The translations under genes were made by a program, and so were the position numbers. Source: an uncultured Desulfobacterales bacterium (lineage in GTDB: Bacteria; Desulfobacterota; Desulfobacteria; Desulfobacterales; SpSt-501). From it: a DNA stretch of 64,000 bases. Of this stretch, positions 8,788 to 47,062 are shown piece by piece; positions within the stretch are counted from its first letter, which is position 1, and each line of letters starts with the position of its first letter. Location of the stretch: positions 1 through 64,000 of the forward strand of contig CALIUY010000005.1 of NCBI GenBank assembly GCA_938048455.1, in the 5' to 3' direction. A model generated the notes under the pieces. The model did no database searches. It was not told the origin of the DNA and worked only from the letters and a program-made list of their open reading frames with translations.

Positions 8788-8856
8788 GGCTGGCACGATC
8801 CGGAACCCCTTCCCGCGGCATCGGCTTCCGCGGAACCCCTTGAAGGAGTGGCGGCG

Positions 8857-9627
8857 ATGACATCCCAATACAACATGATGGAAATGATGATTTGCGTCGC
8901 TTCCCGTTTTCTTGAAGACGGCAAGACGGTCGCCGTCGGCACCGGCGCCCCCTGCGCCGCGGCGATGCTCGCCCAGAAGCTGCACTCGCCGAACCTGATC
9001 ATCCTCTTCGAGGCCGGAGGCGTGGCGCCGCTTTTGCCGCAGATGCCCATTTCCGTCGGCGATTCGCGGACCTTTTTCCGCGCGGTCATGGCGGCGGGCA
9101 TGAACGAGATGATGACCACCTGCTGCCGCGGGCAGGTCGATTACGCCTTTCTCGGCGGAGCGCAGATCGACAAGTACGGCAACATCAATTCCACCGTGGT
9201 CGGGGACTACGCCAAGCCCAAGGTGCGCTTCCCCGGAAGCGGCGGGGCGAACGATTTCGCCTCGTTCTGCTGGCGGACGATGATCATGACCGTGCACAGC
9301 AAGGCGCGCTTCGTGGAAAAATGCGATTTCGTCACCTCTCCCGGCTTTCTCACCGGCGCCGGGGCGCGCGAGGCGGCCGGGCTCCCGGAGGGTGGACCTT
9401 ACAAGATCATCACCGATCTGGCGGTGATGGGGTTCGACGAGGAGACCCGGGCGATGAAGGTCGAGTCCCTGCACCCCGGCGTCGAGCTGGACCAGGTACG
9501 CGCGGAAACGGGCTTCGAGCTTCTCGTGGCGAAGGATCTCGGCCGGACCGCGCCGCCGACCGACGAGGAGCTGCGCATTCTGCGGGAGGAGGTGGATCCC
9601 CTGCGCCTGGTGATCGGCCGCGCCTGA
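8857..9627 (+). CDS. CoA-transferase family I, beta subunit (glutaconate CoA-transferase subunit B type)
   Basis: This 256-residue partner of the preceding gene begins 69 nt downstream. It contains VAVGTGAPCAAAMLAQ and then LFEAGGVAPLLP, where the Glu of EAGG is in the position of the catalytic glutamate that forms the glutamyl-CoA thioester. A later QIDKYGNINSTVVGDY is typical of the family. AAGGAG lies 9 nt before the ATG at 8857; an in-frame GTG at 8848 overlaps that site and is unlikely. It is the last gene before the terminator at 9744. Confidence 0.9.
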   Translation: MTSQYNMMEMMICVASRFLEDGKTVAVGTGAPCAAAMLAQKLHSPNLIILFEAGGVAPLLPQMPISVGDSRTFFRAVMAAGMNEMMTTCCRGQVDYAFLGGAQIDKYGNINSTVVGDYAKPKVRFPGSGGANDFASFCWRTMIMTVHSKARFVEKCDFVTSPGFLTGAGAREAAGLPEGGPYKIITDLAVMGFDEETRAMKVESLHPGVELDQVRAETGFELLVAKDLGRTAPPTDEELRILREEVDPLRLVIGRA

Positions 9628-29457: not shown

Positions 29458-31047
29458 ATGACGACCTCGACGAACGACCGAGCGCTCCGGATGATTTTGC
29501 TTTCCGCCGCGTTGATCCTTGTGTTTTCGGCCTTGGTCCTCGGGGTTCACGGCTCGGCCCCGCCGGTGGCGTTCGATCCCGAACCGGGTCGGCCCCGGGC
29601 GGACGTTATCCGCATCGACGGCTTGAAGCGCTTCGGCCCACTCGAGCGGCCCGCGGTGACCTACCTCCACGAGAAGCACACCCGGGCGCTCGCCGCCCGA
29701 AACCTCGACTGTCTTTCCTGCCATCTTCCGGGGGAAAAAGCCCTCTCCACGAAGTTCAAACGACTGGAGGACGCCTCCCGCGAGCAGACGATGGCGGTCT
29801 ACCACACGCACTGCACCGGCTGTCACCGCGAGACCGCCTCCCGCGGCGAGCGCTCCGGGCCCGTCTCCTGCGCCGGCTGCCACCAGGAGCGGCCCGTCGC
29901 CTCTTCCTGGCGCGACATCGGGATGGACCAGTCGCTGCACTACCGCCACGTGAAAGCCCAGGAGAACCGCTGTGAGACCTGCCACCACCAGCGTGACCCG
30001 GCGACCGAGAAGCTCACGTACGTGAAAGGGCAGGAAAACAACTGCCGCTCCTGTCACCGGGAGACCCCGGTCGAGAAGGTGCGGCCGCTGCGGCAGGCGG
30101 CCCACGAGCAGTGCATCGACTGCCACCGCCGGCAGATCGCCCGCCAGAAGGAGGCGGGACCCATCCACTGCTCCGGGTGTCACGACCCGGCTCTTCAGGC
30201 GCGGATCGAAAAGCTGAAGGAGGTGCCGCGGCTGCTGCGCGGCCAGCCCGACCAGACGCTCGTCAAGGCCGCACGACGCAACGCCCCGCCGATCGACCCG
30301 GCCGAGCGCGTGAACCTGGTCCCCTTCAACCACCTCGGGCACGAGAGCTACGTCGACACCTGCCGCGCCTGCCATCACGTTACGATGGAGTCCTGCGCCG
30401 CCTGCCACAGCCTCGAGGGATCGAAGGAAGGCAAGTTCGTCACCCTCCAGGCGGCGATGCACCGGGCGACGGCGCAGCCGAGCTGCATCGGCTGCCACAA
30501 CGCCGCGAAGGCCAAACCCGCCTGCGCCGGCTGCCACGACGCCATCCCGGTCAAGGATCCGCCGGATGTCGCCGGCTGCGCGAGTTGCCATGTGCCGAAG
30601 CCCGAAGGCCTGGAAAAAGGCGCCGACCGCCAGGCCGTGGCGCGCCGCCTGATCGAGGCCCGCCAGGTTGTGGCGGCGACCTACGCCGAGGAGGAGATCC
30701 CGGAGAACGTCGAGATCCGGGCCCTCAGTCGGATCTACGAGGGGGTGAAGCTTCCGCACCGGCGCATCGTGAAGGCGCTCGCCAAGGGTGCCTCCGAGAG
30801 CCGGCTCGCGGGGGCCTTCCACCGCGACCCCGGCACGCTCTGTCAGGGGTGCCATCACCACAGTCCGGTCGCCAAAAAGCCGCCCGCCTGCGCGAGCTGC
30901 CACGGGCAACCCTTCGACCCGCGGCAGCCCGGTCGGCCCGGACTGCAGGCGGCCTACCACCTGCAGTGCATGGAATGCCACCGCAGCATGGGGATCGCCA
31001 AACCGGCCGCCACCGACTGCACCGGCTGCCACAAGGAAAAGCGCTGA
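29458..31047 (+). CDS. hmcA: High-molecular-weight cytochrome c HmcA, 16 hemes
   Basis: The 529-residue periplasmic protein has an N-terminal export helix ([19 protein letters not shown]). I count 16 CxxCH motifs from CLSCH to the final CTGCH, with many additional His for bis-His ligation, the number known for HmcA of Desulfovibrio vulgaris. It takes electrons from periplasmic c3-type cytochromes (for example downstream of hydrogenases) and passes them to the membrane HmcB-F complex. It heads a complete hmcABCDEF operon. Confidence 0.96.
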
Positions 31048-31087
31048 GCCGGGCGGACCGGCTTCCGCGCAAGGTGAGGTTCGTCGC

Positions 31088-32182
31088 ATGTCGATTTCGC
31101 GAAGACGATTTCTCGGCTGGATGGGAGCCGCGGGCGCCGGTTTCGCCGCGGCCGGTCGCGCACACGCCGGCTCCTCCCCGCGAGGCGCGGCGAACCCCGA
31201 GACCCTGGGGGTACTCTTCGATGCTACGCGCTGCATCGGCTGCCGCAAGTGCGAAGAGGCCTGCAACCGGGTCAACGAGCTTCCCCCGCCCGAGCGGCCC
31301 TTCCACGATCTCGGCGTGCTCGAAAAGCGGCGCCGCACCGACGCCCGCACCTACACCGTCGTCAACCGCTACACGGGGATCGAAGGCGCCCGGGGGCCGG
31401 TCTACCGCAAGATCCAGTGCAACCACTGCCTGGAGCCGGCCTGCGCTTCGGCCTGTTTCGTGCGCGCCTTCACGAAGAACGCCGACGGCTCGGTGACCTA
31501 CGACGAGTCGGTTTGCGTCGGCTGCCGCTATTGCATGATCGCCTGCCCCTTCGAGATCCCCGCCTACGAGTACGACAAGGCGTTCACCCCGCGGGTGATG
31601 AAGTGCACCTTCTGTCACCCGCGGCTCGTGCAGGGGCTGCTTCCGGGCTGTGTCGAGATCTGCCCGGCCGAGGCGCTCACCTTCGGCCGCCGGCGCGACC
31701 TGTTGCGCATCGCTCGGTCGCGCATGGCGCAATCCCCCGGCCGCTATCTCGATCATATTTACGGCGAGTTCGAGATGGGCGGGACGACCTGGCTGACGAT
31801 TTCCGGGGTGCCCTTCCGGGCGATCGGGATGCGCGAGGATCTGGGGACCACCCCGGCCCCCGAGCTGACCAAAGGCGCCCTCGGGGTTGTCCCCGTGGTG
31901 GCGGCGATGTGGCCCGTCCTGCTCACGGGAATTTACGCCATCAACCGCCGTCGGGACCGGATCGCCCGCGAGGAGCGCGAGGCGGCCGTGGCCGCGGCGT
32001 TGGCTCGGGCCGAGGCCGAGGCCAAGAAAAAGCTCGCCGAGGCGCTCGCCAAGGCCGACAAGGACAAGAAGGCGGCCGTCGAACGCGAGGTGAAAAAGGC
32101 CCTCGAGGAGGCGGCCCGCGCCCGTACCGAGGCCCCCGCCCCGGCATCCCCGGAAGGGGGCGGCGAAACGAAGTCCGGCTGA
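31088..32182 (+). CDS. hmcB: Hmc complex iron-sulfur protein HmcB
   Basis: The 364-residue protein has a twin-arginine signal ([20 protein letters not shown]), so the folded Fe-S domain is exported. Four cluster motifs follow: [35 protein letters not shown] and CTFCHPRL...CVEIC. A membrane helix ([19 protein letters not shown], about residues 263-281) and a charged, Ala/Lys/Glu-rich coiled-coil tail on the cytoplasmic side complete it. It links the periplasmic cytochrome to HmcC. The start at 31088 fits the Tat motif; upstream frame extensions lie inside hmcA. Confidence 0.93.
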
Positions 32183-32194
32183 GGAGAAGCGACG

Positions 32195-33364
32195 ATGCAA
32201 TTCCCCAAGGTCACCCTGGAGCGGCCGCGCTGGACGCCCTTCAACATCGTGGCGGCGATCATCGTCGTCGTCGGTCTCGTGATCACCGGCATCCGTTTCA
32301 CCCAGGGCCTGGCGGCCACGACCCGCCTTTCCGACTACAACCCCTGGGGCATCTGGATCGGCTTCGATCTCCTCGTCGGGGTCGCCCTCGCCGCCGGCGG
32401 TTACGTGACTTCGGCCGCCTGCTACCTCTTCGGCCTGAAGCGTTTCCATACCGCGGTGCGGCCGGCCATCCTGACCGGGTTTTTGGGCTATGCGCTCGTC
32501 GTGCTCGCCCTGCACTACGACGTCGGCCGGCCGTGGCGGCTGCCCTATCCCTTTCTCGTGCAGCAGGGGACGACCTCGCTGCTCTTCGAGGTGGCGGCCT
32601 GTGTCGCGCTCTACCTGACCGTGCTCTTCATCGAGTGGACCCCGGCCGCTTTCGAGTGGCTCGGCCTCAAGCGGGCGAGAAACCTCGTCGTGCGCCTGAC
32701 GCTCGTGCTGACGATTTTCGGGGTCGTGCTCTCGACGCTGCACCAATCCTCGCTCGGGGCGCTCTTCCTGATCGCCCCCTCGAAGCTCCATCCGCTGTGG
32801 TACTCCCCCTATCTGGCGCTCTTCTTTTTCGTCTCGAGCATCGTCGCCGGCCTTTCGATGGTGATCTTCGAGGGCGCGCTCGCCCACCGCTATTTCCACC
32901 ACAAGATGGACGAGACCCACCGCCGCGAGGCGGACGGGGTGGCCCTCGGCTTCGCCAAAGCGGCTTCCTGGGTGCTCGCCGGCTACTTCGTCCTCAAGCT
33001 CGTGGGCGTGGCCCAGGCCGACGCCTGGCACCATCTGGCGAGCGGCTACGGGGCCTGGTTCCTGCTTGAGGTGGTCGGCTTCGTGCTTTTGCCCTGCTTT
33101 TTCTTCGCCGTCGGGGCGCGGGAGAAGAACCTGAGGATCGTCCGCTTCACCGCCGCCTGGGCGGTGCTCGGCATCGTGATCAACCGCTTCAACGTCGGCC
33201 TGATCGCCTTCAACTATCACCTGCCGGCCGAGGAGCGCTATTTCCCGCACTGGATGGAAATCGGAATTTCGCTCTTCATCGTGACGATCGGCATTCTCGC
33301 CTACAAGTTCATCGTCCGCCACATGCCGATCCTCTACGCGCATCCGGATTACGAGCCGCACTGA
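32195..33364 (+). CDS. hmcC: Hmc complex NrfD-like integral membrane subunit HmcC
   Basis: The 389-residue polytopic protein has about ten membrane helices of the NrfD/PsrC family: PWGIWIGFDLLVGVALAAGGYV, VLALHYDVGRPWR and LHQSSLGALFLIAPSKLHPLWYSP are typical. NrfD subunits bind menaquinol and may take part in charge translocation without heme. The gene begins 12 nt after hmcB, with GAGGAGAAG before the ATG. Confidence 0.95.
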   Translation: MQFPKVTLERPRWTPFNIVAAIIVVVGLVITGIRFTQGLAATTRLSDYNPWGIWIGFDLLVGVALAAGGYVTSAACYLFGLKRFHTAVRPAILTGFLGYALVVLALHYDVGRPWRLPYPFLVQQGTTSLLFEVAACVALYLTVLFIEWTPAAFEWLGLKRARNLVVRLTLVLTIFGVVLSTLHQSSLGALFLIAPSKLHPLWYSPYLALFFFVSSIVAGLSMVIFEGALAHRYFHHKMDETHRREADGVALGFAKAASWVLAGYFVLKLVGVAQADAWHHLASGYGAWFLLEVVGFVLLPCFFFAVGAREKNLRIVRFTAAWAVLGIVINRFNVGLIAFNYHLPAEERYFPHWMEIGISLFIVTIGILAYKFIVRHMPILYAHPDYEPH

Positions 33365-33395
33365 ACCGGCGGCCGGCGAAAGGAACGAGCGTTCC

Positions 33396-33590
33396 ATGGG
33401 CGAAGGGGTTCACAGCCTGCACGAGTTCATGCTGCGCACCGAGAGCATCACCTACATCCTGATCGCCGCGGCTCTCTGCGGCTTCGTCTTCTTTTGGCGC
33501 TTCCTGAGCGAACGGGACGAGGACCGGGATTACCTCGGGGCCGACCGGCCCGGCGGGGAGGAGGAAGGGCAGGGTGGGGCGCATCACTAG
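33396..33590 (+). CDS. hmcD: Hmc complex small membrane subunit HmcD
   Basis: The 64-residue protein has one membrane helix (ITYILIAAALCGFVFFWRFL) and a charged C-terminus rich in Asp/Glu and Gly. Size, single helix and position between hmcC and hmcE match HmcD. AAAGGA lies upstream of the ATG. It probably acts as a structural subunit. Confidence 0.88.
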   Translation: MGEGVHSLHEFMLRTESITYILIAAALCGFVFFWRFLSERDEDRDYLGADRPGGEEEGQGGAHH

Positions 33591-33626
33591 TCGGATCGCG
33601 GTGCACGCCTTCGGAGGGGACCGTCC

Positions 33627-34304
33627 ATGTATGAATTCGTGACCGGACCGCTGGCCTGGCTGGCCTTCGCCGTCTTTTTCGTCGGCAACCTCGTGCGCCT
33701 CGTGCGCTACGTGCGGGGGCTCGACTGGAAGCTCGACCGCGTGACCTACGGGACGAACATCGCCTACGGGGTGCGGGGCGCCCTGCGCTCGATCGTCTTC
33801 TGGCTGATCCCCTTTGGGACCCACAGCTGGCGCAACAACCCGGGATTCACGATCCTGGTCTTCACCCTGCACGCCGGCCTGATTTTCACCCCCCTCTTTC
33901 TCCTCGCCCACAACATCTTCCTCCAGGAGCGCTGGGGGTTCAGCCTCTGGTCCATGCCGGGGGGACTCGCCGACACCCTGACCGTCGCCGTCCTGGTCTC
34001 GGCCGCCCTGCTCGCCCTGCGCCGGATCGCGCTCCCGGAGGTGAGGCGGATCACGAGCGCTTACGACTACGCGCTCCTCGCCGTGGCCGCGGCCCCTTTC
34101 CTGAGCGGCCTGATCGCCCGTTACGCCTACGCGAACAGCGAATTCTGGCTCATCGTGCACGTGCTCTGCGGCGAGATCTTCCTGATCGCGATCCCGCTCA
34201 CGAAGCTGTCGCACTTCGTCCTCTTCTTTGCGACCCGCGCCCAGATCGGCATGGACTTCGGCATCAAGCGGGGCGGCATGAAAGGCCGCGGCCTGCAGTG
34301 GTAG
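33627..34304 (+). CDS. hmcE: Hmc complex cytochrome b-like subunit HmcE (NarI/DsrM type)
   Basis: The 225-residue protein has five to six membrane helices of the NarI gamma-subunit type. Conserved His in [30 protein letters not shown] and KLSHFVLFF are suitable heme b ligands. It would exchange electrons with menaquinone and hand them to the cytoplasmic HmcF. The paralogous tmcC product in this window has the same plan. GGAGG lies upstream of the ATG. Confidence 0.93.
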
Positions 34305-34359
34305 GCGGGAGGCCAGGCCGGCGGTCCCGCCCAGCGAACGGAGGTTCAAAAGAGTCATC

Positions 34360-35745
34360 ATGCCCGAGGGAAAACTCTGCAACCGGCAGCCCGTGACGAC
34401 GCTCGAACAGCTCCAGGCGCTGCTCGCCGACAAGGGCGGAAAGCAGTACTACGAAGAGATGAACCGCCTCGAGGTGGACGCCAAAGCGCTCTGGGACACC
34501 ATCCAGCGCACCTGCAAGTCGCGCATCCGCACCTGGCTGGAGATCTGCACGCACTGCGGCCTGTGCGCCGAGAGCTGTTTCTACTATCTCGCCAACCACA
34601 AGGACCCGAGCCAGGTTCCGGCGTACAAGATCCAGAGCACGCTGGGCGAGATCATCCGCCGCAAAGGGCGAGTGGACAACGCCTTCCTGCAGTACACGAT
34701 GGACACGGTGTTCGCGAAATGCACCTGCTGCAACCGCTGCGCGATCTACTGTCCGCTCGGGATCGACACCGGGGTCATGGCGAGCTACACCCGCGGGCTG
34801 CTCTTCTCGCAGGGCTTCACCCCCTGGGAGATGAAGATCGGCTCGGGCATGCATCGCATTTTCCGCGCCCAGATGGACGTCACGACCGAGGACTGGGTCG
34901 AGACTTGCCAGTGGATGGCCGAGGAGACCAGCGAGGACTGGCCGGGCCTGGAAATTCCGATCGACAAGGAAGGCGCCGACATCCTTTACACGGTGAACGC
35001 GCGCGAGCCCAAGCACTACCCGGAGGACATCGCCCAGGCCGCGATCCTCTTCCACGTCGCCGGGGAAAACTGGACCGTCCCCAGCGAAGGCTGGGAGGAG
35101 ACCAGTCTCGCCATGTTCGCGGGCGACTGGGAGGGCTGCCGCCAGCAGGTGCAGAGCGTCTACGACGCCATGGCCCGGCTGCGGCCCAAGCGCATGGTGG
35201 TGACCGAATGCGGGCACGCCTACCGTGCGACGGTGATCGAAGGCCCCTACTGGGCGGGGCTGCCCACGGGGAAGACCCCCGTCGAAACCCTCCACTACGT
35301 GGAATGGGTGGCCGAGGCGCTGCGCACCGGAAAGCTCAAGATCGATCCCCGCAAGAAGATCAAGGAGCCGGTGACCTACCAGGACTCCTGCAACTACATC
35401 CGCAACGGCGGGCTGGCCGACGCCGCGCGCTACATCATGAGCCGGATCGCCGAGGACTTCCGCGAGATGGGCCCGAGCCGCGAACACAACTTCTGCTGCG
35501 GCGGCGGCGGCGGGTTAAACGGCATCGGCCGCTACCGCGAGCAGCGCAACATCGGACTCAAGGTGAAACGCGACCAGATTCTCGCCACCGGGGCGAAGCT
35601 CGTGGTCGCCCCCTGCCACAACTGCTGGGATGCGATCCGGGATCTCGAGGAGATCTACCGCATCGGCATCCGCTGGACCTTCCTCAAGCCGCTCTTGATC
35701 AACATGATCGAGGTGCCCGAGCACCTCCGGCCGAGGGAGGAGTGA
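34360..35745 (+). CDS. hmcF: Hmc complex cytoplasmic iron-sulfur subunit HmcF (HdrD-like)
   Basis: The 461-residue soluble protein has two N-terminal [4Fe-4S] motifs ([11 protein letters not shown] and [11 protein letters not shown] with a following Pro) and C-terminal CCG domains ([18 protein letters not shown], and PCHNCWD), as in the HdrD subunit of heterodisulfide reductase and DsrK. It is thought to couple the membrane quinone pool to a cytoplasmic thiol/disulfide partner. It is paralogous to TmcB at 43603-44934. GGAGG is present but 16 nt from the ATG. Confidence 0.94.
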
Positions 35746-35750
35746 GTCCG

Positions 35751-36287
35751 ATGGACAAGGTGCAGATCGCCGGCGACGGCGCCCTCACTCAAGGGGGCAA
35801 ACCGGTCGTCACCGACCCGTTGCTTCATCTGGGGAGCCGGGTCGAACTCGACCCGGGATTCACCTTGCGGAGCTTCTTCCGCATGATCGAACGCTACCCC
35901 GACTTCTCCCGCCTGAACGCCTTTCTGCCCGAGTGCCTCGAGCTCTACCGTGCCTGCCCCGCCGGGGAGTGCACCGCCCCGGGGATCGGCCGCCTCGAAT
36001 TCTACAAGACGGTCGAGATGAGCGGCTTTCCCGGCGAGCCGCGCCTCGAGATCTACCACACCCTCTGCGGCCGGGAGGGGGAGACGGCCTGCGAGATCCG
36101 CGAGCTTCCCCTTGAGCACCTCCTCGACCTTCCCCTGCGGATCGGCAAGCTCAAGCACGTCGTCTTCGGCGACCGGGTCGACGTCCTCGAGTTCGACACC
36201 GTCTTCAATCTCTTCGAGTTCATCGAGGGGATCGTCTGGCAGCTCAGCTTTCACCGCAGCCCCAAAGAGTGTGCGCTGAGGAGATGA
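35751..36287 (+). CDS. Unknown protein linked to the hmc operon
   Basis: The 178-residue soluble protein, with GGGAGGAG before the ATG, starts 5 nt after the hmcF stop. Sequence features are FTLRSFFRMIERYPDFSRLN, a mid-region with Cys in YRACPAGECTAPG, and a C-terminal beta-strand-rich part ending FDTVFNLFEFIEGIVWQLSF. I do not recognise a family. Tight spacing with hmcF and the following usp gene suggests it belongs to the complex or its assembly. Confidence 0.75.
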   Translation: MDKVQIAGDGALTQGGKPVVTDPLLHLGSRVELDPGFTLRSFFRMIERYPDFSRLNAFLPECLELYRACPAGECTAPGIGRLEFYKTVEMSGFPGEPRLEIYHTLCGREGETACEIRELPLEHLLDLPLRIGKLKHVVFGDRVDVLEFDTVFNLFEFIEGIVWQLSFHRSPKECALRR

Positions 36288-36290
36288 GCC

Positions 36291-37214
36291 ATGTTCAAGA
36301 AACTGCTCTTCGCGACGACGGCGTCCCCGGTCTGCGACAACGCGGCCAAGGTGGCCTTCGACCTCGAGATGAAATGGGAGGCCAAGCTGATCCTGCTGCA
36401 CGTGCTCGGCATCCCCAGCCGCGGCTTCGGCCTGCAGGTGGTCGATGTGCGCACCGGGGAAAAGGAGCAGCCGAGCCCCGACTACCTCGAGTGGGTGACC
36501 GAGGAGCTGAAGACCACCTACGCCGCCTTCCTTGAAGAGAGCAACGCCCGGATCGTCACCGCGATCGGTGAGCCCTACCGGGAGATCCTGCGGCTCGCCC
36601 GCAAGGAGGACGTGGACATGATCCTCATGGGGGCCCACAGCCGCGACGAGGAGGTCGGCGCCGCACGGCACCGCCAGGTGGCCGGAAGCACGCTGCGCCG
36701 GGTCGCCAAGGCGGCGCGCTGCCCGGTCGTCATCGTGAACCGACCCTGCACGACCTGCTGGAAGCTCTTCTCCAACATCGTCGTCGGGACCGACTTTTCG
36801 AAGGCCTCGGAGTCGGCCCTGCTCTGGGGCTACAAGCTCGCCCGCGAAGTCGGGGCGAACCTGCACGTGTTCCACGCGGTCGACATCACCGCCGGGGGGT
36901 TGACCCGGCCGGCCGGGCAGACGGATCTGGAGCAGCGCATCCAGGAAGCGCGTCGTCGCATCGAGCACCATCTCCTGCCGAAGATCAAGGGCTACGAGAA
37001 AACCACGGTCGAGGTCTGGGAGGGCATTCCCTACGTCGAGATCCTCAAGTTCGCCCGCGCGCGGCAGGCGGACCTGATCGTGATGGCCCACCACACCCGC
37101 GAGGTCGACCCCGAGGAGGCCGAAATGGGCAGCACGGTCGAGGAGGTGGTCCTGCGCTCCTCCTGCCCCGTGGCGAGCGTGAATCACCCGGACAAGGTGG
37201 CCGATCTCCTCTGA
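36291..37214 (+). CDS. Tandem universal stress protein (two UspA domains)
   Basis: The 307-residue protein consists of two Usp repeats (about 1-150 and 155-307). Each begins with a strand and Asp/Thr near the nucleotide site (KKLLFATTASPVCDNAAKV; IVVGTDFSKASESAL) and ends with an ILMGAHSR or IVMAHHTR strand and a GST-containing loop (AGSTLRRV; GSTVEEVV). Both repeats keep part of the ATP-binding G-2x-G-9x-G(S/T) signature. It begins 3 nt after the upstream stop, so it is in the hmc transcript. Confidence 0.9.
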   Translation: MFKKLLFATTASPVCDNAAKVAFDLEMKWEAKLILLHVLGIPSRGFGLQVVDVRTGEKEQPSPDYLEWVTEELKTTYAAFLEESNARIVTAIGEPYREILRLARKEDVDMILMGAHSRDEEVGAARHRQVAGSTLRRVAKAARCPVVIVNRPCTTCWKLFSNIVVGTDFSKASESALLWGYKLAREVGANLHVFHAVDITAGGLTRPAGQTDLEQRIQEARRRIEHHLLPKIKGYEKTTVEVWEGIPYVEILKFARARQADLIVMAHHTREVDPEEAEMGSTVEEVVLRSSCPVASVNHPDKVADLL

Positions 37215-37230: not shown

Positions 37231-37629
37231 GTGGAGAAAAAGCGCATTCTCTTCGTCGACGACGAGCTCGACATGCGCATCTACCTCGCCACCGTGCTCC
37301 GCACTGCGGGCTACGAGGCGAGCGGCGCGCGAAACGCCCGCGAGGCGCTGGATGCGGCCCGGCGCACCCCGCCCGACCTCATCCTCATGGACGTGATGAT
37401 GCCGCAGGCCGGAGGGGTCGTCCTTTACCAGGAACTCAAGAAAGACCCTCGCCTGCGCGACATCCCCGTCGTGGTCCTGACCGGAGTAGGCGAGAAGCCC
37501 TTCGCCCACCACCTGCGCATGCTGAACCTGCGGCTTCCGGAGCCGCTGCCCCCGCCCGAGGGCTACCTCGAAAAACCGGTCGAACCCGACCGGCTGCTCC
37601 AGACGATTGAACCGCTGCTGCGGCGGTAG
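37231..37629 (+). CDS. Receiver-only response regulator
   Basis: The 132-residue CheY-like protein is read from a GTG with GAGG upstream. Phosphoacceptor Asp lies in LILMDVMMP, the acidic pair in FVDDE, and the conserved Lys in GYLEKPVEP; the Thr of VVLTG is present. It has no output domain, so it must act by protein-protein contact or as a phosphorelay intermediate. An insertion-like loop of about 15 residues before the Lys (KPFAHHLRMLNLRLPEP) is unusual. First of four signalling genes after hmc. Confidence 0.88.
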   Translation: MEKKRILFVDDELDMRIYLATVLRTAGYEASGARNAREALDAARRTPPDLILMDVMMPQAGGVVLYQELKKDPRLRDIPVVVLTGVGEKPFAHHLRMLNLRLPEPLPPPEGYLEKPVEPDRLLQTIEPLLRR

Positions 37630-37642
37630 GCGGAAGGCTCCC

Positions 37643-39286
37643 ATGGAAGACCCCCTCGAGAGCGGCCCCCCCCTCGCCGTCCCCGCCTCGGAGCGGCGGC
37701 TCCTTCTCGCCGACGACGAGGAGGGCATCCGCCGAGTGCTCGGGATCACGCTGGCCGACGCGGGCTACGAGGTGCTGACCGCGGCCGACGGTGAGGAGGC
37801 GCTCGCTGTATTCCGCCGCGAGCGCCCGGCCATCGTGCTCGCCGACATCCGCATGCCCGGCATGGACGGGATCGAGCTGTTGCGCACGATCAAGGCCGAG
37901 AGCCCGGAAACCGAGGTCATCCTGATCACCGGCCACGGCGACCTGGAGCTCGCCATCCAGAGCCTGAAGCTCGAGGCGACCGATTTCGTCACCAAACCGA
38001 TCCAGGAGGACGTGCTCGACATCGCGCTCAAGCGCGCCCGCGAACGTCTGGCGATGCGCCGCCAGCTGCGGGAGTATACCGAAAACCTGAAACGGCTGGT
38101 GCGCAAGCAGGCCGCGCGCCTGGTCGAGCGCGAACGCCTGGCGGCCGTCGACCAGGCGATCGAGGGCTTCTCCTCGGCCTTCCGAGGGCTTGCCGGGGAT
38201 TTCGAAGGGGGGGTGCGCTTTTTCAACGATCTGCCCTGTTTCGTCTCCGTGCACGACCGGGATCTCGTGGTCGTTTCCGCCAATCCCCTCTACGAATCCC
38301 GCCTGGGCGACCGAATCGGCCGGCGCAGCTGGGAGATCTACCCCGAACGCCGCAACGACCCCTACCGCTGCCCCGTGGCGCTGACCGTGGAATCCGGCCG
38401 AAGCCAACGCCGCCAGGAGATCCTCGAAGCCGCGGACGGCACGCGCTTTCCGGCGCTCGTGCACACCGTGCCGATCCGCAACCGCGCCGGCGAGGTCGAA
38501 CTCGTGCTCGAATTCGCCCTCGACATCTCCGAGGTGACGCGCCTGCGCGAGGAGCTGCGCACGACCCAGGAGCGGCTCGCCGCGCTCGGCCTGATGGTGA
38601 GCTCGGTCTCTCATGGGGTCAAAGGGATCCTGACCGGTCTCGATGCCGGGCTCTATCTCGTCGGCTCGGGACTTTCGCGCAACCGCCCGGAAGAAGCCCG
38701 GGAAGGACTCGAGATCGCCACCGAAATGGTCGAGCGCCTGCGGCGCGTGGTGCTCGACGTGCTCTCCTTCGCCAAGGAGAGGCCGCTGGAGGCGCGGCGC
38801 ATGAAGGTCGCCGCCTTCGCCGAGGCGCTTCTTTCGATGGCCGCCCACAAGGCCCGCCGCCACGGCATCGAGCTCGCCGCCGAGATCTCCCCCGAGGCGG
38901 GGGAGTTCGCCGTGGACGAAGGGATCGCCCTGTCGGCGATGCTGAACCTCTTCGACAACGCCGTGGACGCTTGCCTCGCCGCTGCCGACGGCAAACCGCA
39001 CACGATCCGCCTGCGGGCCTTCGGGGAACCCGATGCCGTGGTCTTCGAGGTCGAGGACGACGGGGTGGGGATGGACGATTCCGTCCGCGGACGACTCTTC
39101 GAGCTCTTCTTTTCCTCGAAGGGCAAGGCCGGGACGGGGTTGGGTCTCTTTCTCACCCGCCAGGCCGTGCTGCGGCACGGCGGGGAGCTCGAGGTTCGCT
39201 CCGCGCCGGGGCGCGGCTCCTGTTTTCGGGTGCGGTTTCCGAGGACGCCGCGGCCCGCACCCGGCAATCCCCCTCCGCCCCCCTAG
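37643..39286 (+). CDS. Receiver-PAS-histidine kinase hybrid (cytoplasmic)
   Basis: The 547-residue protein lacks membrane segments. Receiver (about 20-140) with Asp in IVLADIRMPGMDG and Lys in FVTKPI; coiled coil (REYTENLKRLVRKQAARLVE); PAS (about 185-310) with a LVVVSANPLYESRLGD core; dimerisation helix with His in SSVSHGVKGI; HATPase with N box NLFDNAVDAC, G1 EDDGVGMDD and G2 GTGLGLFL. A receiver at the N-terminus of a kinase suggests that another kinase controls it. It shares long near-identical stretches with the gene at 41625. Start MEDPLE at 37643. Confidence 0.9.
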   Translation: MEDPLESGPPLAVPASERRLLLADDEEGIRRVLGITLADAGYEVLTAADGEEALAVFRRERPAIVLADIRMPGMDGIELLRTIKAESPETEVILITGHGDLELAIQSLKLEATDFVTKPIQEDVLDIALKRARERLAMRRQLREYTENLKRLVRKQAARLVERERLAAVDQAIEGFSSAFRGLAGDFEGGVRFFNDLPCFVSVHDRDLVVVSANPLYESRLGDRIGRRSWEIYPERRNDPYRCPVALTVESGRSQRRQEILEAADGTRFPALVHTVPIRNRAGEVELVLEFALDISEVTRLREELRTTQERLAALGLMVSSVSHGVKGILTGLDAGLYLVGSGLSRNRPEEAREGLEIATEMVERLRRVVLDVLSFAKERPLEARRMKVAAFAEALLSMAAHKARRHGIELAAEISPEAGEFAVDEGIALSAMLNLFDNAVDACLAAADGKPHTIRLRAFGEPDAVVFEVEDDGVGMDDSVRGRLFELFFSSKGKAGTGLGLFLTRQAVLRHGGELEVRSAPGRGSCFRVRFPRTPRPAPGNPPPPP

Positions 39287-39351
39287 CCGGTCTCTTCCCC
39301 TGTCGGGGCGGCGTTTGCCCCGATGCGGCGTTTTTCGGTATAGTGGAAGCC

Positions 39352-41625
39352 ATGACCGGGCTCTTCGCCGCCATCCAGCGCAGCCTCGCCGCGAAGCTCA
39401 TCTTGAGCGTCGGCCTGATCCTACTGCTCACCATCACCACCTGGTCTTACTTCAGCATCGCCTATCAGAAGCGCAGCCTCGAACAGCAAGTCGTCCAGCA
39501 CACCGACACCTTGGGGGATGCGATCAAGCTCGGCGCCCACTACGCGATGATGCTCAACGCCCGCGAGGACATCAACCAAATCATCACGAACATGGGGCGT
39601 CTGCCCCAGATCCGCAACATCCGCATTTACAACAAAGAAGGGGCGATCAAGTTTTCCAATCGTTCCCAGGAAGTCGAGCAGGTGACGAACATCATGTCCG
39701 AGGCCTGCCACATCTGCCACCACTCGGAGCCCGCGCTCGTCGAGGTGGGGCTGCGCGAGCGCATCCGCTATTTCCGCGACGAGGACGGGCAAGCCGTCCT
39801 CGGGCTGATCAGCCCGATTTACAACGAGCCCGGATGCGCAACGGGGGGCTGCCACTTTCATCCCGCCGACAAAAAAGTGTTGGGCGCCCTGGACGTCGTG
39901 GTCTCGCTCGCCGGCACCGAGGATGAAATCCGCTTCATGGAAAAGGGGGTCCTCGGACTCGCGCTCGCCGCCTTTCTCGTCACCTCGGCGATGATCTTTC
40001 TCTTCGTCCTGCGCTTCATGAACCGGCCGATCCGCACCCTGATCGCCGGGACCCAGGCGATCTCGCGCGGGGACTACGGCGTGCGCCTGACGATCGACCG
40101 CACCGACGAGATGGGGCAGCTGGCGGCGGCGATGAACTTCATGTGTCGCGAGATCGGGGAGAAACAGGCCGAGCTCAACCGTCAGCGCGACGAGTACCTC
40201 AATCTCTTCAACAACGTCCCTTGCGTGATCACCGTCCAGGACCGCAACTTCCGTCTGCTGCAGTACAACCGCGAGTTCGCCGATCTTTTCGATCCCCGCC
40301 CCGGCGATTTCTGCTACCACGCCTACAAGGGCCGAAGCGAACCCTGCCCCCACTGCCCGGTGGAGAAGACCTTCGCCGACGGCAAGATCCATCTGAGCGA
40401 GGAGCGGGGCATCCACAAGGACGGCTCGCCCGCCTACTGGATGGTCAAGACGACTCCGATCCGCAACGCCGCGGGCGAGATCGTCGCCGCCATGGAGGTG
40501 AACCTCGACATCACCCATCTGAAGCAGCTCGAATTCCTCCTCGAGCGCTCGGAGCGCAAATACCACGAGATCTTCAACAACATCCCCAACCCGCTCTTCG
40601 TCCTCGACGACGAAACGCTCGAAATCCGGGACGGAAACGAAGCGGTGGGGCGCGTCTACGGGTTTTCCCGGGAAGAGATCCTCGGCCGCAATTTTCTCGA
40701 GCTTTTCCCGCCCGAGGAACGTCCCCGCATTCAGGAGCGGATCCGGCGCTCGAACGTGATTCACCAGATGCGGCACCTGCGCCGAGACGGAAGCCTGTTT
40801 TACGTGGACATGTGGATTTCGCCCGCCGAATATCCGGGACGCCGGGCGCTGCTGGTCACCACGAGCGACATCACCCAGCGGCTCGAGACCGAACAGCAGC
40901 TCATCCAGGCGAGCAAGATGGCGACCTTAGGCGAGATGGCGACGGGGGTGGCCCATGAGTTGAATCAGCCGTTGGCGGTGATCAAGACGGCGAGCCGTTT
41001 CTTCATCCGGAAAATCCGCGCCGGCCAAGAGATCGCCCCCGAGGTGCTCGCGACCATGGCCGAGGAGATCGACAGCCACGTCGATCGGGCGAGCCGCATC
41101 ATCAATCACTTGCGGGAATTCGGGCGCAAAAGCGAGCAGGCGCTGCAGCCGGTCGCTCTGAACGAGGTCCTGCGACGCACGGCCGAGATGTTCAGCCAGC
41201 AGTTCAAATCCCGCGGCATCGAGATCCTCTGGGATCTCGAGGAGGGGCTGCCGGCCGTGCTCGCCGAGACCAACCGCCTGGAGCAGGTCTTCATCAATCT
41301 GCTGATCAACGCGCGGGATGCGATCGAGGAGCGGGTTCTCGCCCATCCCCACTCGAAGGGGGAGAAGAAGATCTTCGTCAGCAGCCGGCGCAACGCGGGC
41401 AAGGTCCTGGCCCGGGTGGAGGACACCGGCACCGGCATTCCACCGGCGATTTTGGCCCGGATCTTCGAGCCCTTCTTCACGACCAAAAAGGTGGGCAAGG
41501 GGACCGGGCTCGGCCTCTCCATCAGCTATCAGATCGTCCGCGATTTCGGGGGGACGATCCGCGCCGAATCTTCGCCGGGCGGGGGTGCGGTCTTCGTCGT
41601 CGAGCTTCCGGTCCAGGAGGGGTGA
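39352..41625 (+). CDS. Membrane sensor histidine kinase with a putative c-type heme periplasmic domain
   Basis: 757 residues. TM1 about 16-38, periplasmic domain 39-197, TM2 198-222, HAMP 222-275, PAS 280-390, PAS 400-512, HisKA with His535 in GVAHELNQP, and HATPase to the end ([29 protein letters not shown]). The periplasmic domain holds CHICH (C119-H123), a canonical c-heme attachment motif, and C162-x4-C167-H168, a variant spacing, so one or two covalent hemes are possible. The first PAS has a C321...C332xxC335 trio. It sits between hmc and tmc and is followed by a kinase/receiver gene with 1-nt overlap. It is a likely sensor of periplasmic redox state. Confidence 0.92.
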
Positions 41626-42791
41626 TGCCCGAAACCGCAGGGGAAGACCGTCGCATCCTGCTGGTCGACGACGAGCCCGGGATCCGCCGGGTCCTTTCGC
41701 TCACGCTTGCCGATGCCGGCTGGGAGGTTCTGTGCGCCGAGAACGGCGAGGAGGCCCTGGCGCTTTTCCGCGAAAAAAAACCGCCCATCGTGCTGACCGA
41801 CATCAAGATGCCCGACATGGACGGCATCGAACTTTTGCGCCGGATCAAGGCCGAAAGCTCCGAAACCGAGGTGATCATGTTCACCGGGCACGGCGACATG
41901 GAGCTCGCCATCCAGAGCCTGAAGCACGAGGCGACCGATTTCGTCACCAAACCGATCCACGACGAGGTCCTGGAAATCGCCCTCAAGCGCGCCTGCGAGC
42001 GCATCGCCCTGAGGCGCCGGCTGCGGGAGTACACCGAGAACCTGGAGCGGCTGGTCGAGGAGAAGGCGCGCCGGCTGATCGAGGCCGAGCGGCTGGCGGC
42101 GGTGGGGCAAACGGCGGCCGAGCTCGCCCACACGATCAAGAACATCGCCAACGCCTTGGGGGGGAGCCTCTTCGTGCTCGGCAAGGGGATCGAGCTCGAG
42201 GAGAAGGAAACCCTCCTGCAAGGCTGGGGAATGGTCCAGCGCAACGTCGAGCGGATCAAGACCCTCGCCCTCGACCTGCTCCACTTCGGCCGTTACGCCG
42301 TCGTGCAGCCGGTTCCGGCCGACCCCAACCTTCCCGCCGCGGAGGCGGCGCGGCTCCTCGAGGAAAGGCTGCGCAACGCGGGGATCGCCTTGACGGTGGA
42401 AACCCTGCCCGATCCCCGTCCGGTTCCGCTCGATGCCGGGGCGATCCAGCGTGCGCTCGTCAATCTCCTGACCAACGCCGTCGAAGCCTTCGAAGAGCTG
42501 CCGGAAAACGACGCCCGGGAAAGACGGGTCGCGCTGCGTGTGCGCTCCCTGCCGGAGGGGGGCGTTCTTTATGAAGTCGAGGACAACGGCTGCGGCATGG
42601 AGGAGGAGGTCCGCGGCCGACTCTTCCAAGGGTTTTTCACCACCAAGGGCACGGCGGGTTCGGGGATCGGTCTTTGGCTCACGCGCCGCATCGTGGAGGG
42701 GCACGGCGGGAGGATCGCCGTCGAAAGCCGCCTCGGCGAAGGAACGCGCCTGCGGATTCTTCTGCCCGCCGCCTCCGAGGCTTCGCGCTAG
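41625..42791 (+). CDS. Receiver-histidine kinase hybrid (cytoplasmic), coupled to the heme sensor
   Basis: The 388-residue protein starts at the ATG that shares one base with the upstream stop (TGATG), after AGGAGG. Receiver (1-125; Asp in VLTDIKMPDMDG, Lys in FVTKPI), coiled coil, His in AELAHTIKNIANALGG, and HATPase (NLLTNAVEAF, EDNGCGMEE, GSGIGLWLT). Compared with the gene at 37643 it lacks the PAS domain, but the stretch ELAIQSLK(H/L)EATDFVTKPI is almost identical, so the two are a local duplication. It probably receives phosphate from the heme kinase. Confidence 0.9.
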   Translation: MPETAGEDRRILLVDDEPGIRRVLSLTLADAGWEVLCAENGEEALALFREKKPPIVLTDIKMPDMDGIELLRRIKAESSETEVIMFTGHGDMELAIQSLKHEATDFVTKPIHDEVLEIALKRACERIALRRRLREYTENLERLVEEKARRLIEAERLAAVGQTAAELAHTIKNIANALGGSLFVLGKGIELEEKETLLQGWGMVQRNVERIKTLALDLLHFGRYAVVQPVPADPNLPAAEAARLLEERLRNAGIALTVETLPDPRPVPLDAGAIQRALVNLLTNAVEAFEELPENDARERRVALRVRSLPEGGVLYEVEDNGCGMEEEVRGRLFQGFFTTKGTAGSGIGLWLTRRIVEGHGGRIAVESRLGEGTRLRILLPAASEASR

Positions 42792-42810: not shown

Positions 42811-43161
42811 TCAGCCGATCGTGTTCTTGACGATCCCGATCAGCTTTTCGGGGTCGAAGGGTTTCTTCACGAAGGCCACCGCGTCCTTGACGGCGTGGTC
42901 GCCGTCGATTCCGCTGATCACGATGACCGGGATGTTTTTCAACTCCCGGTCCTGGCGCAGCTTGCGGTAGAACCGCGGCCCCCACTCGCCGGGCATCTGC
43001 AGATCGAGGGTGATCAAATCCGGCTTCTCCCGGCGCACGACCTCCAGCCCCTCCATGCTGCTCGAGGCCGTGCAGGTGGCGTAGCCGTTGTCGCTGAAGA
43101 CGGCCTGGAGGTAGCGGACGATCACCGGGTCATCGTCGATGATGAGGATTTTTTTGGGCAT
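42811..43161 (-). CDS. Receiver-only response regulator in the tmc operon
   Basis: The 116-residue CheY-like protein has the acidic pair in ILIIDDDPV, the phosphoacceptor Asp in LITLDLQMPGEWG, Ser in VIVISG and Lys in FVKKPFDP. It starts 41 nt after the tmcA stop on the same strand and so may be co-transcribed with tmcDCBA. It converges on the hybrid kinase gene with a 19-nt gap. The upstream extension of the frame is a shadow of tmcA. GAGAG is a weak ribosome binding site. Confidence 0.85.
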   Translation of the reverse strand: MPKKILIIDDDPVIVRYLQAVFSDNGYATCTASSSMEGLEVVRREKPDLITLDLQMPGEWGPRFYRKLRQDRELKNIPVIVISGIDGDHAVKDAVAFVKKPFDPEKLIGIVKNTIG

Positions 43162-43202
43162 CGTCGGTACTCTCTTTGCGGTTCGGGGCGACGGCCGCGC
43201 TC

Positions 43203-43586
43203 TCAGCTCCTGCGGTGGCACTCCCCGCAGACGATCGGTCCCTGCCGCCGCTCGAGGTGGCAGCCCCGGCAGTTGCGGTGATAGGCCTTGCGCAGCCCGG
43301 GCCGGCCGCCCTCGTCGGCCAGGCCGTGGCAATCCGCGCAGCGCCGGTCCTCGGAGGATTCCTCCTCCCGGCGCTTGCCGTCTTCGTAGACGTGGTGACA
43401 CTCGTTGCAGGCCTCGATGCCGGCCTTCGCGTTGTGGGCGTCGTGCAGGAAGACCGCAGGCGGCCGCTGCGGACGGGGGAAGGGGTCGGAGGAAACCTGT
43501 TTCATCTCCTCCTGGGACCGCACCCCCATCCCCCCGAAGACGGCCAGGGCGACGGCGGTCAGGACGGTTGCGGCGAGGCGTTTCAT
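43203..43586 (-). CDS. tmcA: Tetraheme cytochrome c3, Tmc complex subunit TmcA
   Basis: The 127-residue protein has a signal peptide ([19 protein letters not shown]). Four CxxCH motifs (CNECH, CADCH, CRGCH, CGECH) with extra His ([26 protein letters not shown]) fit a class III cytochrome c3. Genetic linkage with HdrD-like, cytochrome b and Trp-rich genes identifies it as type II c3 (TmcA). It passes electrons from periplasmic hydrogenases or formate dehydrogenases to the Tmc membrane complex. Confidence 0.93.
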
Positions 43587-43602
43587 CGCGGCCTCCCCCC
43601 GG

Positions 43603-44934
43603 TCAGGGTTTTTCCATCACCTGGTAGAGGATGTCTCCCAGAAACCGCGTCTCCACCCCCAGTTCGTAGTGGTGGATGATGTCCTCGATGCCGCTGTGGC
43701 AGTTGTGGCAGGGGGTGATCACGACTTTCGCCCCTTTGAGCTTGGCGGCCGCGATCTGCTCGGCTTTGACGCGGTTGCTCTCGACGCGGTGTTTCTTGTA
43801 GGGCGGCCCGCAGTTGATCACCCCGCCGCCCGCACAGCAGCAGTAATTGTGCTCGCGGTTGGGCTCCATTTCGATCAGCTGCGCGCAGGTGCGGCGGATC
43901 ACCGCGCGCGCCTTCTCGTGCAGCCCTCCCCCGCGCACCACGTTGCAGGGGTCGTGCAGGGTGACCGGCTCCTCGAACCGGCGGGCGACCCGGATCCGCC
44001 CCTCTTCGAGCAGCTCGTGGTAGAAGTCGATCGCGTGCACGATCGGGATCGGGGGCATGCTCCAGCCGAGCCAGCGGTTGCCCACGTCGTAGACCGAGCG
44101 GAAGGCATGGCCGCACTCGCCCATGACGATGCGGTTCACGCGCAGGCGGGCCGCCGTCTCGAAGTGCGCGCGCTTGAGACGCCCCATGAGCTCGTTGTCG
44201 CCGACGAACATCGCCATGTCGCTGTTGTCCCAGCCGGGGGTGGCCGGCATCGTCCAGTCGACGCCCGCCACGTGGAGGATCACGGCCGCCTGGTAGATGA
44301 GCTGCGCCTGAAACTTGGGCTCGGGGCCGATCACCGAATAGAGAATGTCGGCCCCCTCCTTTTCGAGCGGGATGCGCAAATCCGGGATCTCCCCCCGGGC
44401 CTCCTCTTCCTGCCACATCAGGGTGTCGATCCACTCGTCGTCCTTGACCCACATCTGGTTCAGGGTCGCGGCATGGCTGTGTGCGGTGTCCTGGATGTAG
44501 AGCGGGGTCACCCCGAGGAGATGGCAGATCCGGCGCACGACGAGCATGAGGTAAGCGACGTCGATGCCGAAGGGGCAGTACATCGCGCAGCGCTTGCAGA
44601 GGTTGCAGTGCGTGGAGGCGATGATCCGCGCCTCTTTGATGAAGTCGGGGCTGACCCGGCCGTCCCGGCGGAGGATCTCCCACAGGGTTTGTTTCACCTT
44701 GCCGACCGGGGAATAGGCGGGGTCGCGGTCGCGGGAGAGAAAGAAGTGGCAGGCCTCGGAGCACAGGCCGCAGTGGATGCAGGTGTCGACATAAGCCTTG
44801 AGCCGGGCCCCGGTCTCCCCGGCGAGCACGCGGCGGATGATCCGGCGGATCCGCTCCTCGGTCAGGCCGGCGATGCCGCGTTCCAGGCCCTCGTCGACGG
44901 TTTTCGCCGGGGGCGGTGTCTTGGATCCGGTCAT
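43603..44934 (-). CDS. tmcB: Tmc complex iron-sulfur subunit TmcB (HdrD-like)
   Basis: The 443-residue cytoplasmic-side protein has two [4Fe-4S] motifs ([11 protein letters not shown] and [11 protein letters not shown] followed by PFGID) and CCG domains ([19 protein letters not shown] and PCHNCHSG). It is paralogous to HmcF in this window, with the same order of motifs. Together with TmcC it should exchange electrons between quinone/heme b and a cytoplasmic disulfide-type acceptor. It lies 16 nt from tmcA. Confidence 0.93.
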
Positions 44935-44971
44935 GGGCGAACGCCTTTCTTGCTTTCCTGAGCCTCCGCCT

Positions 44972-45631
44972 TCACCAATCCCGCGCGTGGCGCACGGCCC
45001 CGAATTCGCTTCCCATGTAAGCCCGCGTCAGGGGGGCGAAGAGCATGTGGCGGATCCGCGTGAAAGGAACGGCGACGAGCATCGCCTCTCCGCTCAATAC
45101 GTGCAGCACGGTGAAGAGCCGCACGTCGAACCATTGCAGGTAGGCGATGACGCCGGTGACGAAGGGGGCGGCGGTCAGCAACAGGATCCCGTAATCCGAG
45201 GCCGAGGTCACGTAGGCGACCTCGGGAACGACTCGGCGGCGGGCGAAGAAGAAGAGGCAGCCTCCGATCACGACGAAGGACATCCCGATCGCCCAGTCGT
45301 CGGGGAGCGCCGGCCAGCTCACGTTCCAGGCCTCCTCCCAGAGGACGATGTGGGCGAGGAGAAAGATCGGGGTCAACAGCAGACAGAGATGAAAAGCGAA
45401 GGTGACGGCCGTGAGGGCGGGGTGGCGGCGCCAGTTCGTCGCCGCAAAGGGGACGACCCAGTGGGCGATGGAGCGCAGGCCGTAGCGGAGGCTGAAATAG
45501 GTGAAGAGGAAGCGCTCGCGGCGGCGGGCGAGCAAGAACAGCTCGAGGAGGCGATAGAGGCTTCCGCCGACAAAGACGGCGAAGGCCGCCCACAGCAGCG
45601 GTCCGGTCGCCAGGCGGTAGAGCTCGTTCAT
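44972..45631 (-). CDS. tmcC: Tmc complex cytochrome b subunit TmcC
   Basis: The 219-residue protein has five to six membrane helices in the NarI/DsrM plan, with His in FAFHLCLLLTPIFLLAHIV, VLHVLSGEAMLV and RIRHMLF as candidate heme b ligands. It is a paralogue of HmcE. The start MNELYR at 45631 lies 4 nt after the tmcD stop; the longer frame to 45760 overlaps tmcD and was discarded. Confidence 0.92.
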   Translation of the reverse strand: MNELYRLATGPLLWAAFAVFVGGSLYRLLELFLLARRRERFLFTYFSLRYGLRSIAHWVVPFAATNWRRHPALTAVTFAFHLCLLLTPIFLLAHIVLWEEAWNVSWPALPDDWAIGMSFVVIGGCLFFFARRRVVPEVAYVTSASDYGILLLTAAPFVTGVIAYLQWFDVRLFTVLHVLSGEAMLVAVPFTRIRHMLFAPLTRAYMGSEFGAVRHARDW

Positions 45632-45635
45632 CGGT

Positions 45636-46901
45636 TCAGACCTTTCCGAAATCGGCGAGCGGGAGCACCCGGCGGCGGAAAACCCCCTGCTCGAGGCTGC
45701 GCAAAAGCAGTCGGTCCCCGTCGGGGCTGAAGACCGGGTCCCAGGCCGCCTCGGCGGCAAGCTCCCAGGGCCGGTCGTCGAGGAGATAGCCGAAGCGCCC
45801 CTTGTCCTTGAAGCGCACGCAGACCCGGCTTCCGTCGGGCGAGAAGACCGGGGAGAAGACCATCCCCCGCCTCTGGTTCCAGACCCGGCCGTCGACGGCG
45901 ACCGTCCAGCGGCCGGCCTCCTTGAAGCGGGCGGCGAGGCGGCCGCCGTCGGGGCTGAAACAGGGATCGCTCACCATCTCGCCCGCGTCCGCCTTCCACG
46001 GGCGGCCGTCGACGGCGACCGTCCAGCGCCCGAAGGAGGGGGCGACGACGGCGGCGATCCGCTTTCCGTCCGCGGAGACCCGCTGCTGCCAGAGCTGCAC
46101 GAAGGGCCGGTCCCAGAGAATGCGGCCGTCTTCGGCAAGCCACCAGCTTCCCCCGCGCCGCACGGGGGCGAGCACCGTTCGGCGCTGCGGATGAAAGAGA
46201 GGATCCCAGACGCAGGCGAAGGTTTCCTCCCAGGGCGTTGCGTCCACGGCGATCGTGTAGTCGCTCGGCCCCAGGCGCACCGCGGCGGCAAGCGAGCCGC
46301 CGTCCGGCCGGAAGGCGGGGCTCCAGGCGTTCATGAAGCGCCGCTCCCAGGGACGACCGCCCACGGCGGCGGTGTAGATCCCTTGCCGGTACTTGAAGAT
46401 ATCCCCCTCGTTCAGCGGCTCGGTCTGGACCACGGCGGCGCAGGAGGCGCCGTCAGGGCTCAACAAGGGGTGAGTCAGATTGGGGAAGCTTTCCTCCCAG
46501 GGGACATCGTCCACGGCCATGCCGTAGGCCATGTCCTGCTGGAAGGCGACGGCGATCCGGCCGCCTTCGTCGCTGAAGAGGGGGTTCCAGACGAAGGAAA
46601 AGCGGTTCTCCCAGGCAACCCCGTTCACGACCACCGTCCATTCGCCCTCCCGGCTGCCGAGAGCGACCAGGCGCCCGTCGGGAGCGTAGCGCAGATGCCA
46701 GAGCTTTTCGTAGGGCTCCGGCCAGGTCTCGCCGTTCACGCAGACGGTGAAGCCCTCCTGCCCGAGGCGGACGATCGCCGCAGCGGCATCGCCCGAGGGG
46801 CTCGCCTGGATCTCCTCCACCCCGAGAAACCGTTCGCGCCAGGAGGACAGCGGGAGGTCGAAAATCGCGGGGTTCCAGCTCCCATCGGTGAACCGGTTCA
46901 T
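45636..46901 (-). CDS. tmcD: Tmc complex Trp-rich beta-propeller protein TmcD
   Basis: The 421-residue protein is made of about nine repeats of roughly 45 residues, each with a W-x-x-x-(F) strand, a (D/N)P-x-F-S-x-D-G loop and a V-(N/D)-G/D-x-x-W segment (for example [20 protein letters not shown]), as in PD40/WD40-like propellers. This Trp-rich composition is the mark of TmcD. It has no signal peptide, so it is probably cytoplasmic and associated with TmcB. First gene of the leftward tmc operon; AAGGAG precedes the ATG. Confidence 0.9.
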
Positions 46902-46965
46902 GCCCGCTCCTTGGTTGGGGTCGGCTGGAGAAGCAGGAGCGACCCGCCCGGCGGCGGGGAGAGAT

Positions 46966-46979
46966 GCGGTCAAGACCGC
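46966..46979. promoter_or_regulatory. Palindrome in the tmcD/fumarase divergent region
   Basis: GCGGTC-AA-GACCGC, perfect 6-bp arms with a 2-nt centre, lies 65 nt upstream of tmcD and about 85 nt upstream of the fumarase -35. It could be an operator for either gene. No clear tmc promoter was found around it. Confidence 0.35.
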
Positions 46980-47062
46980 CGGGCGATGTGCAGAGCCTGA
47001 AACCGAACCGAGTTTATCCGGGGCTCCCGGAAAATGCAAGCGCGGGAAAAGCCTTGAAATTC

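Follow-up and report, generated by a model that had tools for sequence, protein, structure and literature searches.

A membrane histidine kinase encoded in the window (the whole 64,000-nucleotide stretch of DNA analysed here, from a sulfate-reducing bacterium) carries two putative attachment sites for c-type heme in its periplasmic domain, the unusual one of which appears, from alignment to solved relatives, to be the site that its family has conserved. The protein is, with slightly better than an even chance, a two-heme c-type Cache sensor kinase in which a Met-on/Met-off switch reports the redox state of cytochromes in the periplasm. By what means sulfate reducers gauge how heavily these cytochromes are loaded with electrons, and adjust Hmc, Tmc and Hdr accordingly, is a question to which we know no answer. 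It becomes directly testable with a kinase family that has two putative heme sites and, in about two thirds of the loci examined (29/42), a gene-order tie to such complexes.

A sensor kinase and its gene neighbourhood

The open reading frame, its strand and the positions of CHICH (residues 119-123) and CX4CH (162-168) were exactly as an earlier note on this DNA had given them. Hydropathy analysis of the kinase placed two membrane helices at about residues 10-36 and 198-224, with the periplasmic domain between them, and HAMP, two PAS domains, HisKA and HATPase_c all scored above the Pfam cut-offs (Table 1). Like other kinases of the HisKA type, the protein has a phospho-acceptor histidine (H535) together with N, G1 and G2 boxes. 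Among named relatives the closest (L040; L numbers denote homologous loci) shares 90% identity and comes from a MAG labelled Desulfatibacillum sp., and when a paralogue of the sensor domain was sought in the rest of the genome the sole match was the kinase itself. Promoter-like sites showed no excess (1, against 1.2 in shuffled sequences), and a terminator-like stem 5′ of the gene, at 39301-39325, may set it apart from the upstream gene run.

Table 1. Features of the kinase and of its neighbourhood in the window.
Feature	Position	Strand	Basis or remark
Hmc complex genes hmcA, B, C, E, F	29458..35745	+	NCBIfam equivalogs, all above cut-off
HmcA	29458-31047		
181-aa protein between hmcF and the Usp gene	35742-36287	+	No Pfam match
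Universal stress protein, two Usp domains	36291..37214	+	PF00582
Single-domain response regulator	37231..37629	+	PF00072
Receiver-PAS-kinase protein, upstream of kinase	37607..39286	+	Pfam
Membrane histidine kinase, 757 aa (putative diheme Cache sensor - HAMP - PAS - PAS - HisKA - HATPase)	39352..41625	+	Translation, Pfam
Met66, candidate distal ligand of site-2 heme	39547..39549	+	Invariant 100/100; aligns to GSU0935 Met60
Motif 1, CHICH, C119-H-I-C122-H123 (119-123), predicted added c-heme site	39706..39720	+	Invariant 52/52; 71/100 in wider set
Motif 2, CATGGCH, C162-A-T-G-G-C167-H168 (162-168), predicted conserved c-heme site, widened CX4CH	39835..39855	+	CXnCH 100/100
His170 of CHxH, candidate distal ligand of motif-1 heme	39859..39861	+	68/71 with motif 1, 0/29 without
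HAMP linker (218-264)	40003..40143	+	PF00672, E 1.9e-12
First cytoplasmic PAS domain (about 284-388), with C291, C321, C332, C335	40201..40515	+	Pfam
Second cytoplasmic PAS domain (403-510)	40558..40881	+	Pfam
Kinase core: HisKA (H535 in HELNQP) and HATPase_c, all boxes present	40927..41616	+	Pfam, sequence reading
Receiver + HATPase protein, overlaps kinase stop by 4 bases	41622..42791	+	Pfam; adjoins kinase in many homologous loci
Receiver-domain response regulator (domain in second half of frame)	42811..43401	-	PF00072
Tmc complex genes tmcA, B, C, D	43203..47039	-	NCBIfam equivalogs, all above cut-off
TmcA	43203-43586	-	

The earlier note was also right in placing the gene next to multiheme cytochromes, here HmcA and TmcA, and all nine of the Hmc and Tmc genes tested around the kinase (9/9) exceeded the NCBIfam equivalog cut-offs. 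The receiver + HATPase protein encoded immediately downstream is likely to be a partner of the kinase; of the regulator genes scanned beside the latter, none matched a DNA-binding domain. Homologues of the 181-residue protein were seen at L040, L060, L063, L123, L124 and L126. A similar arrangement has been described in Desulfococcus multivorans, in which response regulators, a universal stress protein and four histidine kinases adjoin hmc and tmcA1 (PMC5109826); the accessible part of that paper does not mention a heme sensor.

Neighbouring genes were scanned at 46 homologous loci, 42 of which contain the sensor. Hmc, Tmc, Hdr/MvhD or HmcBC-like neighbours were present at 29 of these 42 (28 distinct), with Hmc or Tmc genes at 5, HdrA, HdrB, HdrC or MvhD at 21 (L129 by a weak match only; L055 and L125 on the same contig) and HmcB/HmcC-like genes at 3. 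None of them was found at the other 13, which include the long stretches L051, L127, L128, L130 and L135 and several short ones; at two of these 13 a related sensor from the same alignment is joined to HAMP and GGDEF (diguanylate cyclase) domains (L127:8867-10282 and L128:8608-10005). At L133 the sensor is on a kinase that has a sigma-54 type regulator after it, and at L063 a homologous kinase (7863-9446) belongs to a Tmc cluster of similar gene content and has no match to the periplasmic sensor.

Twelve rows (11 distinct contigs) had a nearby HdrA with an inserted receiver domain, which Pfam confirmed in all three cases tested (E about 1e-31). These are flavin/iron-sulfur proteins of the HdrA type, about 1140-1180 aa long, in which a complete receiver lies at about 192-304; their genes are near that of a diheme kinase (L048:2971-6399, L057:1122-4649, L054:2794-6222 and 8 further contigs). 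The receiver of L048 retains the acid pair and the phospho-Asp, as read by eye. The insert suggests that the Hdr enzyme may be under direct phosphorylation control at these loci. Of five long HdrA-like places among the best matches in the window's own genome, C1, C9 and C24 are clearly without a receiver insert; the remaining two are C33 and C7.

Two predicted heme sites in a Cache-type domain

An AlphaFold2 model of the sensor domain, built on the alignment, had a pLDDT of 87.8 and a pTM of 0.79, and VIA-align matched it to the Cache domain of WalK (4ywz; Z 13.5, rmsd 2.1 over 137 residues). Foldseek returned GSU0935 (3b42) at rank 7 (E 1.4e-5) with a low TM-score; the GSU0935 crystal is a swapped dimer, according to the part of its description that is accessible (PMC3460858). 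The PAS/Cache-like fold that the earlier note had expected between the two helices is thus borne out, in the model and through the WalK match, as a single Cache domain. The CX4CH helix (160-163) of the model lies between strands 148-157 and 176-185, and the loop that holds CHICH (helix 120-123) comes earlier, between strands 98-102 and 138-142. In sCache_heme domains, as far as the available text describes them, the heme-bearing insertion falls between the third and fourth strands of a single Cache fold (PMC12889525), and the modelled CX4CH helix occupies that same place (beta3-beta4).

In a core alignment of the 52 closest sequences (the window sensor and 51 homologues, 32-92% identity), 14 columns were invariant in 52/52: M66, R91, G97, C119, C122, H123, R139, I156, C162, C167, H168, H170, G178 and D181. 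A lack of conservation of the cysteines among homologues, which the earlier note had named as a result that would count against heme, was therefore not what we found. C119, C122, H123, C162, C167, H168, H170 and M66 were also invariant in 31/31 near-full-length kinases, in which the heme residues of the sensor and the boxes of the kinase are equally invariant. Judged from these alignments, the conservation of the motifs exceeds chance, and the broader proposal of covalent c-type heme sensing by a Cache-type domain is well supported by homology and invariance; its suggested tie to cytochromes is strengthened by the conserved neighbourhood.

A single-protein phmmer search of the sensor against PDB sequences gave chance matches only, and a profile was required. 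The profile of the 52 sequences found GSU0935 (3b42) at E 0.00068 and GSU0582 (3b47) at E 0.0088, with C162, C167 and H168 aligned to residues 106, 109 and 110 of the 3b42 chain and M66 to chain residue 26. The heme residues of GSU0935 are given in the accessible text as Cys140, Cys143, His144 and Met60 (PMC8396549), and an offset of 34 between chain and GSU0935 numbering fits all four. Because of this fit, CX4CH (site 2) is predicted to be the family's conserved heme site, with its methionine, and the canonical CHICH an added second site. A second alignment, of low probability and covering only part of GSU0935, also puts M66 on Met60, and H168 and M66 supply the equivalents of the proximal histidine and distal Met60 that characterise PF21563. 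These results reverse the roles assumed previously, when suspicion had fallen on CX4CH; the idea that this motif may bind nothing is unsupported, as it would lie at the heme site of solved single-heme relatives with the distal methionine kept.

As the 52 sequences had been chosen by similarity, weaker matches were added from a profile re-search of 47 genomes (45/47 with a match, 30 loci taken) and from 20 further regions (19 useful). Own-genome copies (L001, L009, L010) and two partial pieces of L095 were dropped before counting, to give a wider set of 100 sequences (99 homologues and the window), in which L017 and L055 have the same sequence and L055 and L125 share one contig. Site-2 CXnCH and M66 were each present in 100/100, motif 1 in 71/100. 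Where motif 1 was present, the site-2 spacing was X3-X5 in 69/71 and the CHxH histidine occurred in 68/71, whereas without motif 1 the spacing was X2 in 27/29 and the histidine occurred in 0/29; longer site-2 spacing was thus seen in 69/71 against 2/29. The exceptions with motif 1 were L114 and L088 (CX2CH, no histidine) and L104 (CX4CH, no histidine); those without it were L113 and L071, which keep CX4CH or CX3CH. At site 2 of L103 the spacing is CX5CH, with both motif 1 and the histidine of CHxH retained. Tree building placed the diheme rows in one cluster of 72 (L071 and L113 included; support 90/94, not starred), with the long-branch L088 outside. Since they cluster together, neither the association nor the Fisher values computed for it can be taken to count many independent events, and it amounts to something close to one origin of motif 1, the long spacing and His170, with a few later changes. 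As His170 mostly appears and disappears with motif 1, we infer that it may be the ligand of the motif-1 heme, just as we infer the binding of two hemes.

The genome contains a ResB-like gene beside a Cytochrom_C_asm gene (two Cytochrom_C_asm matches and one ResB) and only a sub-threshold match to CcmE, which points to System II for heme attachment. A special lyase may serve CX4CH; the genes around the two Cytochrom_C_asm places of the genome did not point either way. According to the available text of one report, CXXCK and CX15CH have proteins dedicated to them, and attachment goes wrong at unnatural spacings (PMC3601427); that of another describes CX4CH as a heme motif occurring twice in the tetraheme cytochrome c3 (PMC10454114). 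The other class III cytochromes read here (HmcA, TmcA and the ORFs behind L146, L149, L150/L152 and L151) contained only CX2CH and neither CX3CH nor CX4CH; the cytochrome ORF listing required three or more CX2CH motifs, and the ORF behind L143 fell outside it.

What the kinase may sense and control

In the accessible account of GSU0935 and GSU0582, the oxidised heme is high spin and the reduced heme low spin, probably with Met60 bound, and the oxidised form is taken as active (PMC8396549). By homology, the site-2 heme (C162/C167, proximal His168, distal Met66) should switch in the same way and would be the inherited switching heme: Met66 would stay on the iron on reduction and be released on oxidation (or on binding of a gas), and its release would shift the N-terminal helix leading into the membrane. 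The added heme at site 1 (C119/C122, proximal His123, distal perhaps His170) would serve as an electron relay between the switching heme and class III cytochromes of the periplasm. The adjoining receiver proteins would then be phosphorylated by the kinase, so that the Hmc and Tmc electron-transfer complexes are adjusted. Because the gene lies between those of electron-transfer complexes, the kinase may let the cell feel the electron load of its cytochromes. If two hemes are indeed bound, the domain would be a sensor with an internal electron relay rather than one with a single gas-binding heme.

A possible but clearly less probable reading is that of a gas sensor: NO (or CO) would displace Met66 from the site-2 heme, and the role of the second heme would be confined to setting the potential of the first. 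It is a serious reading because a published kinase-type relative, an HAMP-linked sCache_heme protein, binds NO (PMC12889525, from the accessible text), and GSU0582 and GSU0935 are likewise described as binding NO and CO with displacement of Met60 (PMC8396549); the genes that adjoin the window kinase, however, encode electron-transfer complexes, and on casual inspection none for NO or nitrite metabolism stood out among them. We think it improbable that heme is held at just one of the two sites, be it the site-2 motif or CHICH, with the other cysteine pair forming a disulfide or metal site. The plain CX2CH spacing seen in every other class III cytochrome read here, and a ResB/Cytochrom_C_asm pair with CcmE matched only below threshold, would fit such a sensor, but a histidine follows each second cysteine in 52/52, which a disulfide would not need, and the cytochrome c3 hemes on CX4CH also speak against it.

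The first PAS domain contains four cysteines (C291, C321, C332, C335; window positions 40222-40356) that were invariant in 31/31 near-full-length kinases. In NreB-like iron-sulfur PAS sensors four PAS cysteines bind an Fe-S cluster, and those found here may form an Fe-S or metal site, so that the kinase may sense the cytoplasm too. Taken to its extreme, the periplasmic domain would be a redox-inert relic and the kinase would respond mainly through this PAS domain, as might be argued from the invariant cysteines and from the L063 kinase, which sits in a Tmc cluster without a sensor match. We regard this as very improbable, given that the heme residues of the sensor are as invariant as the kinase boxes. 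The two-heme redox sensor that we favour can be extended, tentatively and with low likelihood, to a redox comparator spanning the membrane, in which the two hemes would read the periplasmic cytochromes, the PAS domain would read the cytoplasm and the outcome would set the activity of Hmc and Tmc, which carry electrons over the same membrane; in relatives, Hdr itself would be switched directly by phosphorylation of the HdrA receiver.

Comparison with known sensors

One-heme relatives have been characterised, and two-motif sensors have been noted in print without characterisation in the accessible text (PMC3831638). A search of mainly open literature did not find the roles of the two sites, their coupled changes or the tie to Hmc, Tmc and Hdr, nor, beyond the mentions cited here, two-heme periplasmic sensor kinases or receiver-fused HdrA. 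GSU0599, GSU0591, Adeh_2011 and Adeh_3383 are reported, in the parts of the sources available, to have two heme motifs (PMC3831638, PMC8396549), and by that description alone share this trait with the window sensor.

The sCache_heme domains (DUF3365/Tll0287-like, PF11845) are likewise fused to HAMP and kinase domains, but are defined in the accessible text by one strictly kept CXXCH (PMC12889525), whereas the aligned site of the window sensor is CX4CH and its CXXCH lies in another loop. PF11845 was not listed for the window protein, and 1/52 members matched it at E <= 0.01. PF21563 (Mcp40H-20_sensor), the family of GSU0935 and GSU0582, was matched by 43/52 members at E <= 0.01; against its cut-off of 27 bits the window protein scored a borderline 26.9 for the domain alone and 22.7 for the whole protein, and a search across its own genome gave no match anywhere, controls included, and so carries no weight. 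Like the window protein, the Geobacter chemoreceptors GSU0935 and GSU0582 (PDB 3B42, 3B47), which hold one c-type heme, have a periplasmic Cache/PAS-like domain between two membrane helices, and the heme site and the distal methionine are at aligned positions. They differ in that their one heme is on CXXCH, whereas the window sensor has a second motif, CX4CH at the common site and the CHxH histidine, and in that their output is that of a chemoreceptor and that of the window protein is a kinase.
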